A stretch of 64,000 nt of DNA from Halofilum ochraceum (GTDB taxonomy: Bacteria; Pseudomonadota; Gammaproteobacteria; XJ16; Halofilaceae). The stretch lies in NCBI RefSeq assembly GCF_001614315.2, contig NZ_LVEG02000002.1:62001-126000 (forward strand), read 5' to 3'. Position numbers and translations under genes: made by a program. Shown piece by piece: positions 32,464 through 55,026 of this stretch (the stretch's first letter is position 1; every line of letters begins with the position of its first letter). The notes under the pieces are model-generated. The model saw nothing but the letters and a program-made list of their open reading frames with translations. It had not been told where the DNA came from and searched no databases.

Positions 32464-32724
32464 GCTGGCGATCTCCTCTACGGGGCGTAACGTTTGCCAG
32501 TGCCCCTACTGTAGTGACATGACCCGGCGTTGTCTGTCGGGGTATTTGCCCCTGTGTAGCCTCTCCTCGTGCCCGCGCGGGATAGCGCGTGGTATGTCTG
32601 CCGGGCGTTTCATGGCGCGATTTTCAGCTGGAACATATAGTTGGCACGCGGTTTGCTGCGTGTTCAGACAGGCGCGACCCGGATGGTTTCCCTGACCGGG
32701 TCGGCGCACCAGGGAGAGTGGGTC

Positions 32725-42351: not shown

Positions 42352-42403
42352 CCTGCGTAGAGGGGCGCCAGGGGGCGTCCCGGAATACCAGGGAAAAGTG
42401 CTC

Positions 42404-43762
42404 ATGTCTTCCGCTACTGCAGTTCGGCGGCGCCGCTTCGCATGGATCGGCGCTGCGCTTCTCGCCCTCGCGGCGGTGGTCCCGGCCCAGGCCAGCGACT
42501 ACCAGCCCGATGTCACATTCAAACTCGAGACCGGGATCGGTCAGGGAAAGATGATCTTCACCGGCGTCGGTGGCGGCATCGACGGGGTGGTCAACCCCAC
42601 GCTCCAGGTGGAGCCTGGCGACGTGGTTCAGATCACGCTGGTCAATGGCGACGGCGCGCTGCACGACATCGTCGTGCCGGAGTTCGATGCGCGTTCGGAT
42701 CAGATCTCCGGTCAGGGATCGAGTTCGGTGATCGTTTTCCGGGCCGGCGAGGCCGGTGAATACCTGTATCTGTGCTCCGTGCCCGGCCACCAGGCGGCCG
42801 GCATGGAAGGCATGATCCAGGTCGGCGCGCGCACGGCCGAGGCCGAGACCCTGCCGAGCATCGTGCGGGATCCGGCCGATCTGCCGGCGCCGGTCGGCGA
42901 CCGCGCGCCGCGCGAACTCGATTTCACCATCGAGACGGTCGAGAAGAAGGCCCGCCTCGCCGATGGCACGAGCTACCGGTACTGGACTTTCAACGAGACC
43001 GTTCCGGGACCCATGCTGCGTGCGCGCGTGGGCGATACCGTCCACGTCACGCTGAAGAACCCGGCCGACTCGACCATGACCCATTCGGTCGATTTCCACG
43101 CCGTCACCGGCCCGGGCGGCGGTGCGGAACTGACCCAGGTGCCGCCGGGCGGCGAGGCCAGCTTCAGCTTCAAGGCGCTGCAGCCGGGTATCTACGTCTA
43201 CCACTGCGCCACACCGATGGTCGCGCATCACATCACCAACGGCATGTACGGCCTGGCCGTGATCGAACCGGAGGGCGGTCTGGAGGACGTCGATCGCGAG
43301 TTCTATGTCATGCAGGGCGAGCTGTACACGGTGGAGGACCACGGCACGCGCGGGGATCTCGGCTTCAGCGTCGACAAACTGCTGGACGAACGGGCGGAGT
43401 ACTTCACTTTCAACGGGGCCGTCGGCGCGTTGACGGCCGAACACCCGCTCAAGGCCGAAGTGGGCGAGGATGTCCGCATCTTCTTTGGCGTCGGCGGCCC
43501 GAATGCCACCAGTTCGTTCCACGTGATCGGCGAGATTTTTGATCGGGTCTACGACCAGGGCGCCATCACCAATGAACCGCTGCGCGACGTCCAGACGACC
43601 ACGGTCGCCCCCGGCGGTGCGACGATGGTCGAGTTCGGTCTCGATGTGCCGGGCCGGTATATCCTGGTCGACCATGCCCTGTCGCGCGCGGAGAAGGGGC
43701 TCGCCGGTTTTCTCCATGCCGAGGGGGAAGAGAACCCCGAGATCTTCCGCAAAGGCCGTTGA
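42404..43762 (+). CDS. nirK: Three-domain copper nitrite reductase with N-terminal cupredoxin
   Basis: A 452-residue exported protein (signal cleavage near VVPAQA-SD). Residues about 40-145 are an extra type-1 cupredoxin with ligands His87, Cys124, His129 and Met134 (CSVPGHQAAGM). Residues about 165-450 are NirK: MTHSVDFHAVTGPGG with type-2 His and the catalytic Asp, YHCATPMVAHHITNGMYG with Cys268 of the type-1 site, SSFHVIGEIFDRVYDQG with the catalytic His, and VDHAL with the third type-2 His. All ligands are kept. It reduces nitrite to NO in the periplasm; the added cupredoxin probably passes electrons in. ATG 42404 (AGGGA ten bases ahead) is preferred over GTG 42398. Confidence 0.94.
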   Translation: MSSATAVRRRRFAWIGAALLALAAVVPAQASDYQPDVTFKLETGIGQGKMIFTGVGGGIDGVVNPTLQVEPGDVVQITLVNGDGALHDIVVPEFDARSDQISGQGSSSVIVFRAGEAGEYLYLCSVPGHQAAGMEGMIQVGARTAEAETLPSIVRDPADLPAPVGDRAPRELDFTIETVEKKARLADGTSYRYWTFNETVPGPMLRARVGDTVHVTLKNPADSTMTHSVDFHAVTGPGGGAELTQVPPGGEASFSFKALQPGIYVYHCATPMVAHHITNGMYGLAVIEPEGGLEDVDREFYVMQGELYTVEDHGTRGDLGFSVDKLLDERAEYFTFNGAVGALTAEHPLKAEVGEDVRIFFGVGGPNATSSFHVIGEIFDRVYDQGAITNEPLRDVQTTTVAPGGATMVEFGLDVPGRYILVDHALSRAEKGLAGFLHAEGEENPEIFRKGR

Positions 43763-43798: not shown

Positions 43799-43814
43799 TG
43801 TCGAAAGCTCGACA
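43799..43814. promoter_or_regulatory. Inverted repeat, possible enhancer-binding-protein site
   Basis: TGTCGAAAGCTCGACA has perfect 6-bp arms TGTCGA/TCGACA and a four-base spacer. Its centre is about 141 bases before the start predicted for the sigma-54 promoter, the distance usual for an upstream activator site. The cognate activator is unknown. Confidence 0.4.
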
Positions 43815-43830
43815 CAATCAACCCGGTAAC

Positions 43831-43867
43831 GACCCCGACGGCGACCCAAAAGGTCACCGCCGGGGTC
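43831..43867 (+). terminator. Long hairpin upstream of the sigma-54 promoter
   Basis: GACCCCGACGGCGACC faces GGTCACCGCCGGGGTC across CAAAA, 14 of 16 pairs matched, followed by GTGTTT. It may be a back-up terminator for nirK. Confidence 0.5.
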
Positions 43868-43921
43868 GTGTTTGACGCGAAGCTCCCGCCCTGCGCGCTT
43901 TGTGTCGCCGTTTTCACCACC

Positions 43922-43937
43922 TGGCAAGCTCTTTGCT
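43922..43937 (+). promoter_or_regulatory. Sigma-54 (RpoN) -24/-12 promoter
   Basis: TGGCAAGCTCTTTGCT agrees with the RpoN consensus TGGCACG-N4-TTGCW except at one central base. GG (43923-43924) and GC (43935-43936) are separated by exactly ten bases. Transcription should start near 43948 on the + strand. Confidence 0.72.
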
Positions 43938-43947
43938 TGGACAGGGG

Positions 43948-44066
43948 GTGTCGGCGGTGTGGGCGCCGACGCAGGAAGACGCGTGAGCCCCGCGCCAGTG
44001 CCAGTGTATCGGGGATCCGCGTCATTTGCCGGCGGGGTCGCATATCGTGTGGCCCCGCTTTTTTTT
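43948..44066 (+). ncRNA. Candidate sigma-54-dependent small RNA, about 119 nt
   Basis: The stretch begins at the start predicted by the -24/-12 promoter and ends in an intrinsic terminator: stem GCGGGGTC / GGCCCCGC (one G-U pair, 11-base loop, 44032-44058) plus eight T residues. Near its 5' end GTCGGCG (43950-43956) pairs with CGCCGAC (43964-43970), a 7-bp stem-loop. Between lies a single-stranded-looking section. The only frame is 12 codons from GTG 43948, without a ribosome-binding site. It follows nirK and does not reach trmFO, so it looks like an independent sRNA. RpoN-dependent sRNAs such as NrsZ and CrcZ are known, but I see no likeness to them. Confidence 0.55.
44032..44066 (+). terminator. 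Intrinsic terminator of the candidate sRNA
   Basis: An 8-bp GC stem followed directly by eight T residues (44059-44066). One of only two full Rho-independent terminators noticed in the window with so long a T-run. Confidence 0.85.
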
Positions 44067-44299
44067 GGGCGTTTGCCTTGAGGGACGGCGAAGAGTCCGA
44101 TGGTCGTGTTGCGGACCGGTGGTTCGGGGTTCTCGCCAGGGCGCGAAGGGCGCCAGGGACGCGGAGCACGGCAACTGCGGACTACGGCAGTGAGCCCGTA
44201 AGACCAAACTTCCCCCGCGATTCCTTGAGCGGCGCCTGCCGGGCCACCCGCCGGCGCTGCTAAAATGGAACATCCGACAGCGACACCCGGTCCGACTTG

Positions 44300-45691
44300 A
44301 TGCTTTCGATTATCGGTGGAGGCCTTGCCGGCTGCGAAGCGGCCTGGCAGGCGGCGGAGCGCGGCGTGCACGTGCGCCTGTACGAAATGCGCCCGCAGCG
44401 GGCAACGGAGGCGCACGTAACCGACCGCCTGGCCGAGCTCGTGTGCTCCAACTCGCTCGGTTCCGACGTAACCGATCGCCCTTCCGGTCTGCTCAAGGCC
44501 GAGCTGCGGCGCATGGGATCGTTCCTGCTCGACTGTGCCGATGCCACGGCGGTCCCTGCCGGCAGTGCCCTGGCCGTCGACCGCGAGGCGTTCGCGGAAC
44601 GCGTTACCGCACGCCTGGAGGCCCACCCGGGCATCGAGATCGTGCGCGAGGAGGTCACCGAACTGCCCGATGGCCCGACGATCATCGCCTCCGGGCCCCT
44701 GACCTCGCCGGCTCTCTCGGACGCGCTGGCGGCCCTGTCCGGCGAGGAGCATCTGTTTTTCTTCGATGCCATTTCGCCGATCGTCGAGGGCGATTCCGTC
44801 GATATGGATGTCGCTTTCCGCCAGTCGCGCTGGGACCGCGGCGACCAGGCCGGTGGCGACTACATCAACTGCCCGCTGGATCGCGACGAGTACGAGGCCT
44901 TCGTCGATGCCCTGCTGGCGGCCGAGCGCATCCCGTTAAAGAGCTTCGAGGCCGCCATCGACGCGGGCGTGAAGGCGGGGCTGCACCGCTTCTTCGAGGG
45001 CTGCCTGCCGATCGAGGTGATCGCCTCACGCGGCCGCGAAGCGCTCGCGTACGGTCCGCTCCGGCCGGTCGGCCTGACCGATCCGCGCACCGGCCGCCGC
45101 CCGTACGCCTGCGTCCAGCTGCGCCAGGACGATCTTGCCGGCACGCTCTACAACCTGGTCGGCTTCCAGACCAATCTGAAGTTCGAGGAGCAGAAACGCG
45201 TCTTCGCACTGATCCCGGGGCTGGCCGATGCCCAGTGGGAGCGCCTCGGTCAGATGCACCGCAATACCTTCCTCTCGGCGCCCAGGCTGCTGGACCCGAC
45301 CCTGCGTTTCCGGGGCCGCGAGGACCTGTTCTGCGCCGGGCAGCTCACCGGTATCGAGGGCTACGCCGGCAACGTCGCTTCCGGCCTTCTCGCCGGCTGG
45401 AACGCGGCGCGGACCATGAATGGCGAGGCACCGGTCACGCTGCCGCAGGACACCATGCTCGGCGCTCTGTGCCACTACATTGCGAACGCGGATCCGGCCC
45501 ATTTCCAGCCGATGAAATCCAACATGGGATTACTCCCGGCCCTGCCGCCGCCGGAGGGACGCCGCAAAAAACGGAAGAAACGCGAGCGCCAGGCGGCGCA
45601 TGCCGGGCGGGCCCTGGCATCGCTGGACGGTTTCCTTCGCGGGGTCGATCCGTTGCCGGCCGCGGAACGCGATCCACGTATCAGCGCGTAG
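44300..45691 (+). CDS. trmFO: Methylenetetrahydrofolate-dependent tRNA (uracil-5-)-methyltransferase TrmFO
   Basis: A 463-residue flavoprotein that makes m5U54 in tRNA with methylene-THF and FADH2. The FAD-binding start is [20 protein letters not shown]. Cys residues equivalent to the B. subtilis pair are in [12 protein letters not shown] near 50 and [10 protein letters not shown] near 230. [21 protein letters not shown] and [20 protein letters not shown], then [19 protein letters not shown] near 350, are typical. A basic insert ([12 protein letters not shown]) sits near the end. ATG 44300 is preceded by an in-frame TTG. The stop codon lies inside a dispersed repeat. Confidence 0.93.
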
Positions 45692-49947: not shown

Positions 49948-52900
49948 GTGGAACCCGAAGGGCCATCCGGAGGCGGCGCCCGCTCGCGGGCGTATTCGAT
50001 CGGTCTTCCGGTGCGGGCCGCTGCAGGCATAAGAAAAGGGAGTCGTGTCATTACTACCACGAATCGCAGGCAAGCCGCTGGCGCGTTCGGCGCGCTGATC
50101 AAATACCTCCGCGAAAACGCCGGCAGCCGGAATGTCGATCTGCTCGAGCCGCTGGCCCGGCTGCTGTTCCATCGCGGCATCCCCGAAGAGTTCTCGCGCC
50201 AGTCGTCGCAGACCCTCAACGCGATGCTGCAGTGGGCGCACGATTTCTATCTCGAGCGTCCGCCGGGCGAATCCAAGGTCCGGATCCTCGAGCCGACCAC
50301 GGAGCGCGAGGGCTGGGAACTGCCGTACGCCCTCGTGGCCGTCGTCACCGACGACCGCCCGTTCCTGGTCGATTCCATCCGCATGGCGCTGGTGGAGAAC
50401 GAGGTCTCGGTCGAGCTGGTGATGCACCCGCAGCTGGTGGCCTGGCGCGATCAGCGCGGGCGTGTAACTCAACTGCTGGGCCGCAACTACACGCCGGATG
50501 TGTCCGAGGAGGCGCTGCCCGAATCACTGATGCTGTTCTGGGTCGAGCGCCCGGTAACCGAAGCCCTTTCCAATCGGCTCGTCAGCGCGATCAATACCGC
50601 CCTGGAGGATGTCGATTCCGCGGTCAGTGATTTCGAGCCCATGCGGGCGCGTGCCCGTGCACTGATCGAAGAGTACGCGAATCCGCCGGTCGCGATGCCC
50701 GAGGAAGACAGCCGCGAAGTGCGGGAATTCCTCGAATGGCTGATCGACAACCACTTCACCTTCCTCGGTTATCGCGAGTACCGCGTCGGCAAGAGCGATG
50801 GCGACCGGGTGCTGAAGCTCGACGCGAAGAGTGGGCTCGGGATTCTGCGCGAGCAGCGCAAGAAGGGCCGCACGCGCAGCGTCTCGGCGCTGGAGAAAAG
50901 GCTGAAGGATTTCGCGGATACGCCGGTGCCGCTGGTATTCACCAAGACCGACGCGCGTTCGACCGTGCATCGGCGCGGGCATATGGATTACATCGGTGTG
51001 CTCCGCTACGACGAGAAGGGCAATATCATCGGCGAGTGCCGTTTCGTCGGTCTGTACACATCGGGCACCTATCATCGTTCCGCGTGGGATATCCCGTTCA
51101 TCCGCGGCAAGGCCAACAGCGTCATGGAGCGCTCGGGGATCCCGTCGGACAGCCATGACGGCAAGGCGCTCGTGAACATCCTCGAGAGCCTGCCGCGCGA
51201 TGAACTGTTCCAGAGCACGGTCGGTGAGCTGCTGGATACCGCGCTCGGCGTGCTGGACCTGGAGGAGCGCAATCGCACGCGCCTGTTCGTGCGGCGCGAC
51301 CACGTCGCCCAGTTCTTCTCCTGCCTCGTATTCATACCGCGCGAACGCTTCAACACGGACGTGCGGATGGCCGTCCAGGCGATCCTGCGCGACGCCCTCG
51401 GTGGCGCGCGCGAGGACTATACGCTGCAGTTCGGCGAGTCCGGCATGGTGCGGGTGCATTTCATCGTCCGCCCCGACGGACCCTGCATCGAGAACTTCGA
51501 TGTCGGCGAGATCGAGCAGCGGATCGTCGCCGCGGTTCGCTCCTGGCAGGATGACCTGCGTGAGGTCCTGATCGAGCGCCATGGCGAGCGTCCGGGCATG
51601 GAACTCGCCAAACGGTTCAGCCAGGCGATGCCCCCGGCCTACATGGACGAGGTACTGCCGTCGGTGGCGGCGTTCGATGTCGAGAAGATCGACAGTCTCG
51701 GCGGCCCCGACGATATCGGCCTGAGCCTCTATCGCCCGGTCGACGACGACACCGGCATCGTCCGGTTCAAAGTATTCAAGCACGACCACACGATCCCGCT
51801 CTCCGACGCGATGCCGATGCTCGAACGCATGGGCCTTAGGGCGGTATCCGAGTGGGGGCCGTACGACATCCGGATGCCAAACGGCGATCACATCTGTATC
51901 CAGGACCTCGACCTGGTGGCCGCGTTCACCGATGAACTCGACGTATCCCAGGTCCGCGAACCGTTCGCCGAGGCCTTCGAACAGATCTGGCGCGGCCGCG
52001 CCGAGAGCGACGGCTTCAACCGGCTGATCCTCGCCGCGCACATGAACTGGCGTCAGGCGGCGCTGCTGCGGGCGTACTGCAAGTACCTGATCCAGACCGG
52101 CGTGCCGTTCTCGCAGACATACATGGAAGACACGCTGACGCGCCACCCGCTGATCTCACGGCTGCTGGTCGAACTGTTCGAGGCCCGTCTGGAGCCAGCG
52201 CGGGATCAGGAGAAGAAGCGCGACCGCGAGCGCGGCGCGAAGAAGCTGCGGACCACATTCGACGCACTGGTCAGCGGCGAGCCCGGCCGGGTGGTCGAGG
52301 GCGCGATCGAGCGCCTCGCCGAAGGCCGTGTCGCCGACGCGCGCGAGGACCAGCAGCGCGTGTGCCGCGAAGTGCTGGAGGACCTGCTGGACGACGTATC
52401 GAGTCTCGACGAGGACCGCATCCTGCGCTCGTTCGCGGATATCGTCGACGCCACCATCCGCACCAACGCCTTCCAGACGGATGCGGCGGGGCAATGGCAC
52501 GACTACATGTCGTTCAAGCTCGACTCCGCCCGGGTACCCGATCTGCCGAAGCCGCGCCCATTCCGCGAGATCTTCGTGTACTCGCCGCGCGTCGAGGGCG
52601 TACATCTGCGCGGCGGCCGGGTCGCGCGCGGTGGACTGCGCTGGTCGGATCGGCGCGAGGACTTCCGCACCGAGATCCTGGGCCTGATGAAGGCGCAGAC
52701 CGTCAAGAACACGATGATCGTCCCGGTGGGCGCCAAGGGCGGTTTCGTGCCCAAACAGCTGCCGGTGGGTGGCAATCGCGATGCCATCCAGAAAGAAGGG
52801 ATCGCGTGCTATCGGATCTTCATCCGCGGGCTGCTCGACATTACCGACAATCTGGTCAAGGGCGAGATCGTCCATCCCGAAAACGTCGTGCGCCACGACG

Positions 52901-55026
52901 AGCCGGACCCGTATCTCGTGGTCGCCGCCGACAAGGGCACCGCGACGTTCTCCGACTACGCCAATGAGCTGTCGAAGGAATACGGCTTCTGGCTGGGCGA
53001 TGCCTTCGCCTCGGGCGGCTCCAACGGCTATGACCACAAGGGCATGGGCATTACCGCCAAGGGCGGATGGGAGTCGGTCAAGCGCCATTTCCGCGAGCTC
53101 GGGATCGACTGCCAGAAGGAGGAGCACACGGCGGTCGGCGTCGGCGATATGGCCGGCGACGTTTTCGGCAACGGCATGCTGCTGTCGAAGCACACGCGGG
53201 TCATCGCGGCGTTCAACCACCTGCATATCTTCATCGATCCGGACCCCGACACCGCATCGGCGTACAAGGAGCGCCAGCGCCTGTTCAAAAAGGTCGCGGG
53301 CTGGGGCGAGTACGACACCTCGAAGATCTCGAAGGGCGGTGGTGTCTGGGAGCGCAGCGCCAAGAGCATCAAGCTGCCGAAGGAGGCGCGCGAGGCGCTC
53401 GGGATCGAGGCCAGTGAGCTCGCCCCCTACGAGATCGTCGCCGCGATCATGCGCGCGCAGGTGGACCTGCTCTGGCTCGGCGGTATCGGCACCTACCTCA
53501 AGGGCAGCGACGAGCGCGAGGAAGAGGTCGGCGATCGCGCCAACCGCCTCGTGCGCTGCAATGGTGACGAGCTGCGCTGTCGTGTCGTCGGTGAAGGCGC
53601 GAACCTCGGTTGCACACAGAAGGGGCGTGTCGAGTTCGCGCTCAACGGTGGCTACATCAACACCGACTTCATCGACAACTCGGCCGGGGTCGACTGCTCG
53701 GACCATGAGGTCAACATCAAGATCCTGCTCAATGCCGCGGTCGATGTCGGCAAACTGAGCGAGTCCAAGCGCAGCACCCAGTTGGCGGAGATGACCGACG
53801 AGGTTGGCCAGCTCGTGCTGCGCAACAACTACCTGCAGACCCAGGCGATCTCGATGATGTCCGCCTTCACCGTGACCCGCCTGGGCACCAAGGCGCATTT
53901 CATCTCCTGGCTCGAGGGACGCGGGATACTCGACCGCCAGCTCGAGGCGCTGCCGAACCAGGAACAGATCGAAGAGCGCCAGGCGCGCGGCCTCGGCCTC
54001 ACCCGGCCCGAGATCGCGGTCCTGCTGTCGTACGCGAAGATCACGCTCTACCCGGAACTGCTTGAGTCGGATGTGCCGGAGGACCCCTACCTCGCACGCG
54101 AGCTGGTGGACTACTTCCCGACGCCACTGCGCGAGAAATACCGCGGTTACATGAACGAGCACCGCGTGTGGCGCGAGATCATTGCCACCCAGGTGACCAA
54201 CAGCGTCATCAACCGCATGGGTGCGACGTTCATCCTGCGCATGCAGGAAGACACCAGCGCCACCTCGGCGGAGGTCGCGCGCGCATTCACGATCGCGCGC
54301 GAGGTGTTCGGAGCGCCGGAACTGTGGGCGAGCATCGAGGCACTGGATACGAAGGTCGACAGCCGGGTCCAGACCGATCTGCTGCTGCGGCTCTGGGAGC
54401 TGCTGCGGCACGCCACGCGCTGGCTGCTCAACCGGCCCGGCCACAGCCTGGATATCGCGAAAGCGGTCGAGTCCTACCGGCCCGGTGTGCAGCAGCTGGT
54501 GGAGCATCTTGAGAGCGTCGCGGTCGAGACCTGGCGCGGGGCGATGGATGACATCGCCGCCGAGATGACCGGACAGGGCGTGCCGCAGAAGCTGGCCCGG
54601 CGGATCGCGGTTACCGACGCGCTGTATCCGTCCCTCGATATCGTCGACATCGCCAACACCGAAGGGCGGCGGGTCGAGAAGGTGGGCCGCGTCTATGCGT
54701 TGCTGGGTGAGCGTTTTGGCCTCAAGTGGCTGCGCAGCCAGATCGAGAGCCTGCCGGTCGACGGCATCTGGCACGCCAACGCGCGGGGCGCGCTGCGTGA
54801 CGACCTGTACGACCGCCACCGGGAGATGACCATCCGGGTGCTGAATGCGCGCACGGAGGAAGATCCCGATGCGGCGGTCGACGCCTGGTTCGCTGAGCAC
54901 GCCATGGATGCCGGCCGCGTCCAGAACATGATGGCCGAGATCCAGCGGCTGCCGCGGATCGACTACGCGACCGCCGTCGTGGCACTGCGCGCGCTGCAAC
55001 AGCTGGTATCGGAGACCAGCGCTTGA
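49948..55026 (+). CDS. gdhB: NAD-specific glutamate dehydrogenase, large (180-kDa) type
   Basis: About 1660-1690 residues, the size of the large NAD-GDHs. The N-terminal half has ACT-like regulatory segments (YALVAVVTDDRPFLVDSIRM; LVAFTD-type region). The catalytic core lies near residues 850-1250 (HLRGGRVARGGLRWSDRRED, LMKAQTVKNTMIVPVGAKGG, EEHTAVGVGDMAGDVFGNGM). It turns glutamate into 2-oxoglutarate, feeding carbon and releasing ammonium. Start is uncertain: GTG 49948 is the furthest, GTG 50011 another, but the best ribosome-binding site (GGGAG, 50038-50042) precedes an ATT at 50050. A perfect hairpin follows the stop. Confidence 0.93.
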   Translation: MEPEGPSGGGARSRAYSIGLPVRAAAGIRKGSRVITTTNRRQAAGAFGALIKYLRENAGSRNVDLLEPLARLLFHRGIPEEFSRQSSQTLNAMLQWAHDFYLERPPGESKVRILEPTTEREGWELPYALVAVVTDDRPFLVDSIRMALVENEVSVELVMHPQLVAWRDQRGRVTQLLGRNYTPDVSEEALPESLMLFWVERPVTEALSNRLVSAINTALEDVDSAVSDFEPMRARARALIEEYANPPVAMPEEDSREVREFLEWLIDNHFTFLGYREYRVGKSDGDRVLKLDAKSGLGILREQRKKGRTRSVSALEKRLKDFADTPVPLVFTKTDARSTVHRRGHMDYIGVLRYDEKGNIIGECRFVGLYTSGTYHRSAWDIPFIRGKANSVMERSGIPSDSHDGKALVNILESLPRDELFQSTVGELLDTALGVLDLEERNRTRLFVRRDHVAQFFSCLVFIPRERFNTDVRMAVQAILRDALGGAREDYTLQFGESGMVRVHFIVRPDGPCIENFDVGEIEQRIVAAVRSWQDDLREVLIERHGERPGMELAKRFSQAMPPAYMDEVLPSVAAFDVEKIDSLGGPDDIGLSLYRPVDDDTGIVRFKVFKHDHTIPLSDAMPMLERMGLRAVSEWGPYDIRMPNGDHICIQDLDLVAAFTDELDVSQVREPFAEAFEQIWRGRAESDGFNRLILAAHMNWRQAALLRAYCKYLIQTGVPFSQTYMEDTLTRHPLISRLLVELFEARLEPARDQEKKRDRERGAKKLRTTFDALVSGEPGRVVEGAIERLAEGRVADAREDQQRVCREVLEDLLDDVSSLDEDRILRSFADIVDATIRTNAFQTDAAGQWHDYMSFKLDSARVPDLPKPRPFREIFVYSPRVEGVHLRGGRVARGGLRWSDRREDFRTEILGLMKAQTVKNTMIVPVGAKGGFVPKQLPVGGNRDAIQKEGIACYRIFIRGLLDITDNLVKGEIVHPENVVRHDEPDPYLVVAADKGTATFSDYANELSKEYGFWLGDAFASGGSNGYDHKGMGITAKGGWESVKRHFRELGIDCQKEEHTAVGVGDMAGDVFGNGMLLSKHTRVIAAFNHLHIFIDPDPDTASAYKERQRLFKKVAGWGEYDTSKISKGGGVWERSAKSIKLPKEAREALGIEASELAPYEIVAAIMRAQVDLLWLGGIGTYLKGSDEREEEVGDRANRLVRCNGDELRCRVVGEGANLGCTQKGRVEFALNGGYINTDFIDNSAGVDCSDHEVNIKILLNAAVDVGKLSESKRSTQLAEMTDEVGQLVLRNNYLQTQAISMMSAFTVTRLGTKAHFISWLEGRGILDRQLEALPNQEQIEERQARGLGLTRPEIAVLLSYAKITLYPELLESDVPEDPYLARELVDYFPTPLREKYRGYMNEHRVWREIIATQVTNSVINRMGATFILRMQEDTSATSAEVARAFTIAREVFGAPELWASIEALDTKVDSRVQTDLLLRLWELLRHATRWLLNRPGHSLDIAKAVESYRPGVQQLVEHLESVAVETWRGAMDDIAAEMTGQGVPQKLARRIAVTDALYPSLDIVDIANTEGRRVEKVGRVYALLGERFGLKWLRSQIESLPVDGIWHANARGALRDDLYDRHREMTIRVLNARTEEDPDAAVDAWFAEHAMDAGRVQNMMAEIQRLPRIDYATAVVALRALQQLVSETSA

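Follow-up and report, generated by a model that had tools for sequence, protein, structure and literature searches.

A putative sigma-54-dependent small RNA gene between nirK and trmFO in Halofilum ochraceum

Introduction

The intergenic DNA between nirK and trmFO in Halofilum ochraceum carries what looks like a sigma-54 promoter followed by an intrinsic terminator, raising two questions: is the DNA between them a small RNA (sRNA) gene, and which activator would switch it on? The original prediction for the 64 000 nt of contig analysed here, referred to as the window, described a -24/-12 promoter with exact spacing ahead of a 119 nt stretch that ends in a hairpin and eight T residues without a credible ORF, and offered a nitrogen-responsive RNA as a guess at the product. 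Here, we examine the anatomy, conservation and regulatory setting of this locus.

Results

Anatomy of the locus

Both the promoter and the terminated, non-coding stretch were borne out, and their coordinates are collected in Table 1. The predicted transcription start was placed 12 nt past the -12 C (43936) and falls within 2 nt of the point at which conservation with the sister species resumes. The terminator was the strongest terminator-like site among the 4 kb scanned. The sigma-54 pattern alone was not significant, with four sites at one mismatch or fewer in the 64 kb window against 2.4 expected; it is the conservation in the sister species that raises promoter, terminator and RNA above chance. 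An exact sigma-54 consensus, TGGCACGCGGTTTGCT, was also seen at window positions 32642-32657, within a region of long ORFs on both strands.

Table 1. Features of the putative sRNA locus in window coordinates (G001, sister species)
Feature	Position	Strand	Evidence
Dyad TGTCG-N6-CGACA (TGTC-N8-GACA), candidate enhancer-binding protein site, centre ~-141	43799..43814	.	G001 comparison
nirK 3' hairpin, probable nirK transcription end, separating nirK from the RNA gene	43829..43869	+	Inverted repeat kept in G001
Sigma-54 -24/-12 promoter TGGCAAGCTCTTTGCT	43922..43937	+	Canonical GG-N10-GC spacing; 16/16 in G001; rpoN in genome
Small non-coding RNA, ~119 nt, predicted +1 at 43948	43948..44066	+	93 % identity to G001; z -3.84; helices spared; no shared ORF
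Hairpin 1, 9 bp with 7 nt loop, RNA 5' end	43948..43972	+	Folds in window and G001; sequence identical
Hairpin 2, bulges, conserved apical loop CAGUGCCA	43978..44023	+	Folds in window and G001; two differences inside, both bulged/unpaired
Intrinsic terminator, 13 bp stem (44031-44059) and T8 (44059-44066)	44031..44066	+	Terminator scan; stem G-U to A-U in G001
Possible extended -10 of trmFO, TGCTAAAAT	44258..44266	+	Read from sequence; inference

Conservation in the sister species

Three genomes of the window's order were compared, all belonging to one genus: the window's own (G000), its sister species (G001) and a third (G002). The sister species carried the RNA unit between nirK and trmFO, in the same synteny as the window. 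Conservation in relatives had been proposed as a check on the original prediction, and the sister species indeed kept the promoter (16 of 16 positions) and the RNA (113 of 121; 93 %) while the surrounding DNA drifted. The 8 nt spacer joining promoter to RNA matched at only three positions (38 %), and identity was 41.5 % over the stretch that links the terminator to trmFO. Upstream intergenic segments reached 67-81 %, the upper value belonging to the dyad discussed below and the others lying at 67-79 %, whilst wobble positions in the flanking genes were about 70 % identical (nirK 105/153; trmFO 83/117). The difference between the RNA and these wobble sites was significant (Fisher P = 5e-8), as was that between the RNA and the upstream intergenic DNA (P = 4e-6). 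These identities indicate selection on a unit bounded by the -24 element and the terminator, spacer excepted, as expected of a promoter with its RNA gene. The comparison shows that promoter, RNA and terminator are under purifying selection as one unit in which the predicted helices are respected.

The sister species' nirK was truncated, with only residues 257-454 (the last 198) left at L002:1179-2040, in what may be a metagenome assembly. Despite this truncation, the RNA and its promoter were intact, which argues that the RNA is independent of nirK.

Fold and coding potential

The 119 nt RNA, with a G+C content of 67 %, had a folding energy of -64.9 kcal/mol (z = -3.84). Folding of the window sequence alone gave three hairpins, the third being the terminator stem, and the same fold was predicted for the RNA of the sister species. 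Nine of the ten differences between the two RNAs fell in unpaired columns (45 of 121 columns) and the tenth converted a G-U pair to A-U. The differences therefore spare the predicted helices (hypergeometric P = 6e-4; fold derived from the window sequence alone), although the depth of two RNA sequences, one each from G000 and G001, limits any test of covariation. No reading frame common to both species crossed the RNA; a 1 nt indel and in-frame stops break the frames, so the region is not coding.

Distribution

Rfam returned no match at gathering score over the window, and a search of the RNA region up to E 10 gave chance-level hits only. A covariance model recovered a single copy of the RNA from each of G000 and G001. 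It found none in G002 and no credible homologue among 369 sampled genomes of the class. Two weak extra matches in that sample were discarded, one of them a generic terminator hairpin and the other part of a coding sequence. A viral contig sharing a 20 nt exact core match was likewise discarded, the match lying inside a protein gene and showing no similarity further out, and the plasmid records searched gave no match. In G002, trmFO had a different upstream neighbour, a transporter-like gene as read from sequence, with no RNA. We read the RNA as a putative clade-restricted, sigma-54-dependent regulatory sRNA.

Candidate activators and the upstream dyad

The sigma factor gene rpoN was present in all three genomes. 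Four full-length enhancer-binding proteins were found in G001, namely NtrC, a GlrR-like protein, a PilR-like protein and one encoded near MSHA pilus genes; G000 had these four and two more. NtrC was named by NCBIfam at 699 bits, above the cut-off. The L111/L109 pair was closest to the GlrR model (628 bits versus 419 for the next family; 1e-189), at a score below the curated NCBIfam cut-off of 763. Orthologues of NtrC and of the PilR-like and MSHA-linked activators were present in G002, and of those among its remaining activators that were scanned, none reached 1e-120 against the GlrR model. The GlrR-like protein is thus the sole activator common to both RNA-bearing genomes and missing from G002, a co-occurrence that rests on three genomes. 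Genes encoding a histidine kinase and a 183 aa lipobox protein precede that of the GlrR-like protein, in the order of qseE-qseG-qseF. In G000 this glrK-qseG-glrR-like set (L149:3292-6622) sits directly downstream of ruvC-ruvA.

Upstream of the promoter, the ten outer bases of the dyad TGTCGAAAGCTCGACA were identical in the sister species, whilst three of its six inner bases had changed. The motif occurred at four places each in G000 (3.64 Mb) and G001, and the place upstream of the sRNA was the only one common to both. QseF sites are described as TGTN12ACA or TGTCN10GACA (PMC6075780, PMC8745638); the half-sites are the same here, with two bases fewer between them (N8 versus the enterobacterial N10). 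The N10 form itself was present only with one mismatch, and only in the window. The conserved dyad, taken with the phyletic pattern of the activators, favours a GlrR/QseF-like regulator. Our best current guess, at somewhat less than even odds, is control by GlrR, the regulator to which GlmY answers in E. coli. The dyad could instead be a site for PilR or another protein, or may form a 3'-end hairpin.

Proposed mechanism

A sigma-54-dependent sRNA gene is well supported by the predicted anatomy, the comparison with the sister species and the rpoN and hfq genes that the organism carries, in keeping with the original prediction, the transcript itself being predicted. We put the probability of a free-standing sRNA gene, served by sigma-54 and an upstream activator and acting in trans, at about 0.75. 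Sigma-54 RNA polymerase would transcribe the gene from 43948 and stop at 44066, once triggered by an enhancer-binding protein bound upstream, most likely at the TGTC-N8-GACA dyad ~140 bp before the start. The likeliest protein for this role, at somewhat less than even odds, would be the GlrR/QseF-like response regulator, which is encoded together with a histidine kinase and a small lipoprotein as in glrK-qseG-glrR. Once released, the RNA, with its three hairpins and U tail, probably works together with Hfq in trans and uses its conserved loops to pair with mRNAs; such pairing is the default assumption for its mode of action. The RNA would probably be induced by a regulator that senses stress or the envelope, and not by nitrogen.

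As a possible target we considered glmS. In G001 a striking 12 nt perfect complement, CCGCCGACACCC, stands ahead of the ribosome site of glmS, but G000 lacks it and the energies are unconvincing for a sequence so rich in G+C. Pairing of the RNA with the glmS leader did not beat shuffles for G000, of which 93 of 200 were as good, and was equalled by 7 of 200 for G001; glmS was thus not supported as a target.

Alternative readings of the locus

The other activators would leave the sRNA as it is and change its meaning. Control by PilR or the MSHA-linked protein, with a link to pili or surface attachment, draws on a G002 pilin gene (L139:1501-1800) whose sigma-54 promoter, TGGCATGGACCTTGCT, has a TGTCG-N6-CGACA dyad, TGTCGATTTTTCGACA, ~165 bp upstream, of the type seen before the sRNA; it is this likeness that brings PilR into consideration for the dyad. 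All three genomes have similar GTCGA-N4-TCGAC dyads directly ahead of the gene for the MSHA-linked activator (L121, L116, L120). However, G002 has both activators but not the RNA, and no TGTC..GACA dyad was seen around pilA in G000, making this reading rather doubtful. We regard control by NtrC, as part of a nitrogen response, as unlikely. NtrC is encoded in the window's genome and in G001, there are precedents such as NrsZ for nitrogen sRNAs that depend on RpoN, and the nitrogen neighbours noted originally, NirK and a large NAD-glutamate dehydrogenase (1692 aa; 49948-55026), were confirmed in identity. Against this, neither species has the NtrC-type dyad GCAC-N5-7-GTGC within ~220 nt ahead of the promoter, G002 has NtrC yet lacks the RNA, and G001 has kept the RNA beside a truncated nirK. 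The proposal of a nitrogen-responsive RNA was thus not supported.

Two further readings deny the free-standing sRNA altogether. In both species the RNA precedes trmFO and shares its strand, and it might serve as a cis-acting leader or attenuator of trmFO, with the terminator controlling read-through. This is very unlikely given that the distance from terminator to gene differs (~235 nt in the window, ~140 nt in G001) across DNA that is itself not conserved, that a plausible extended -10 stands just before trmFO, that trmFO in G002 follows another neighbour and no RNA, and that alternative antiterminator pairing was not evident in the folds of either the window or G001. The possible extended -10 suggests that trmFO may have its own promoter; its match to the sister species is limited to the TGCTA start and the final AT (TGCTACCAT). 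Long spurious ORFs do cross the region in the window, as a short coding gene or some conserved DNA feature resembling an sRNA might lead one to expect; the frame-shifting indel, the in-frame stops and the substitutions that follow the RNA fold make this the most improbable account.

Relation to known small RNAs

To our knowledge, few sRNAs are known to be sigma-54-dependent and most of these come from Enterobacterales or Pseudomonas. The closest parallel is GlmY of Enterobacterales, driven by sigma-54 and GlrR (QseF), which is also a free-standing sRNA with a sigma-54 promoter and an upstream TGTC..GACA dyad. The setting is alike as well, a GlrR-like regulator, a kinase with a lipoprotein gene, rapZ, hfq and glmS all being present in the genome. 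In contrast to GlmY, the RNA described here is not next to glrK, and it has a single dyad of the N8 and not the N10 form where glmY has three. GlmY is also longer than the 119 nt RNA. Neither GlmY nor GlmZ (RF00128, RF00083) gave a match in the RNA region up to E 10, and a GlmZ search of the three genomes was negative at E<=1. Together with the reported restriction of the RapZ RNA-binding domain to Enterobacteriaceae (PMC7073468), this leads us not to favour a GlmY-like decoy role.

NrsZ is an RpoN-dependent intergenic sRNA, and the RNA described here resembles the NrsZ/NfiS type of Pseudomonas nitrogen sRNAs (RpoN/NtrC) in its intergenic position and predicted RpoN dependence. It differs from them in lacking both an Rfam match and an NtrC-type dyad. 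Predicted RpoN dependence is likewise shared with CrcZ/CrcY (CbrB/RpoN), from which it is set apart by the lack of an Rfam match and of repeated A-rich Hfq/Crc motifs. A tentative extension, which we hold to be possible and short of likely, is that a GlrR/QseF-type two-component system outside Enterobacterales drives an sRNA unrelated to GlmY, such that the coupling of GlrR, sigma-54 and an sRNA would either be ancient, with the RNA replaced, or have evolved twice. With only four candidate activators to consider in one of the hosts, a clear case from so remote a branch of the gammaproteobacteria could be used to ask whether GlrR systems generally use sRNAs. It also illustrates that promoter, terminator and comparison combined can reveal an sRNA where Rfam is silent.

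Observations on neighbouring regions

In G000 the gene for the MSHA-linked enhancer-binding protein adjoins pilus genes of the MSHA type, and the conserved dyad before it suggests that the protein is possibly autoregulated. The NirK encoded at 42398-43762 is a three-domain protein in which the copper nitrite reductase carries an additional cupredoxin domain at its N-terminus. The 41 bp hairpin that follows it has changes on both arms in the G001 alignment and looks like the 3' end of nirK. The nirK remnant in G001 adjoins a short, MITE-like insertion with inverted ends (GTGTCCTTTAACGCAAGTTCGTCG...), and the gene upstream of nirK is still present. Beyond the terminator, the intergenic DNA at 44067-44260 is ~95 nt longer than its G001 counterpart and includes an internally repetitive stretch, CGCCAGGGCGCGAAGGGCGCCAGG (44134-44157), that occurs once in the window. 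TrmFO itself (44297-45691) is found here in a gammaproteobacterium-like genome. The relatives retrieved from the genome collection came from remote organisms only, of no use for synteny; the best were from Chloroflexota, at up to 66 % identity, suggesting that TrmFO may have been acquired by horizontal transfer.
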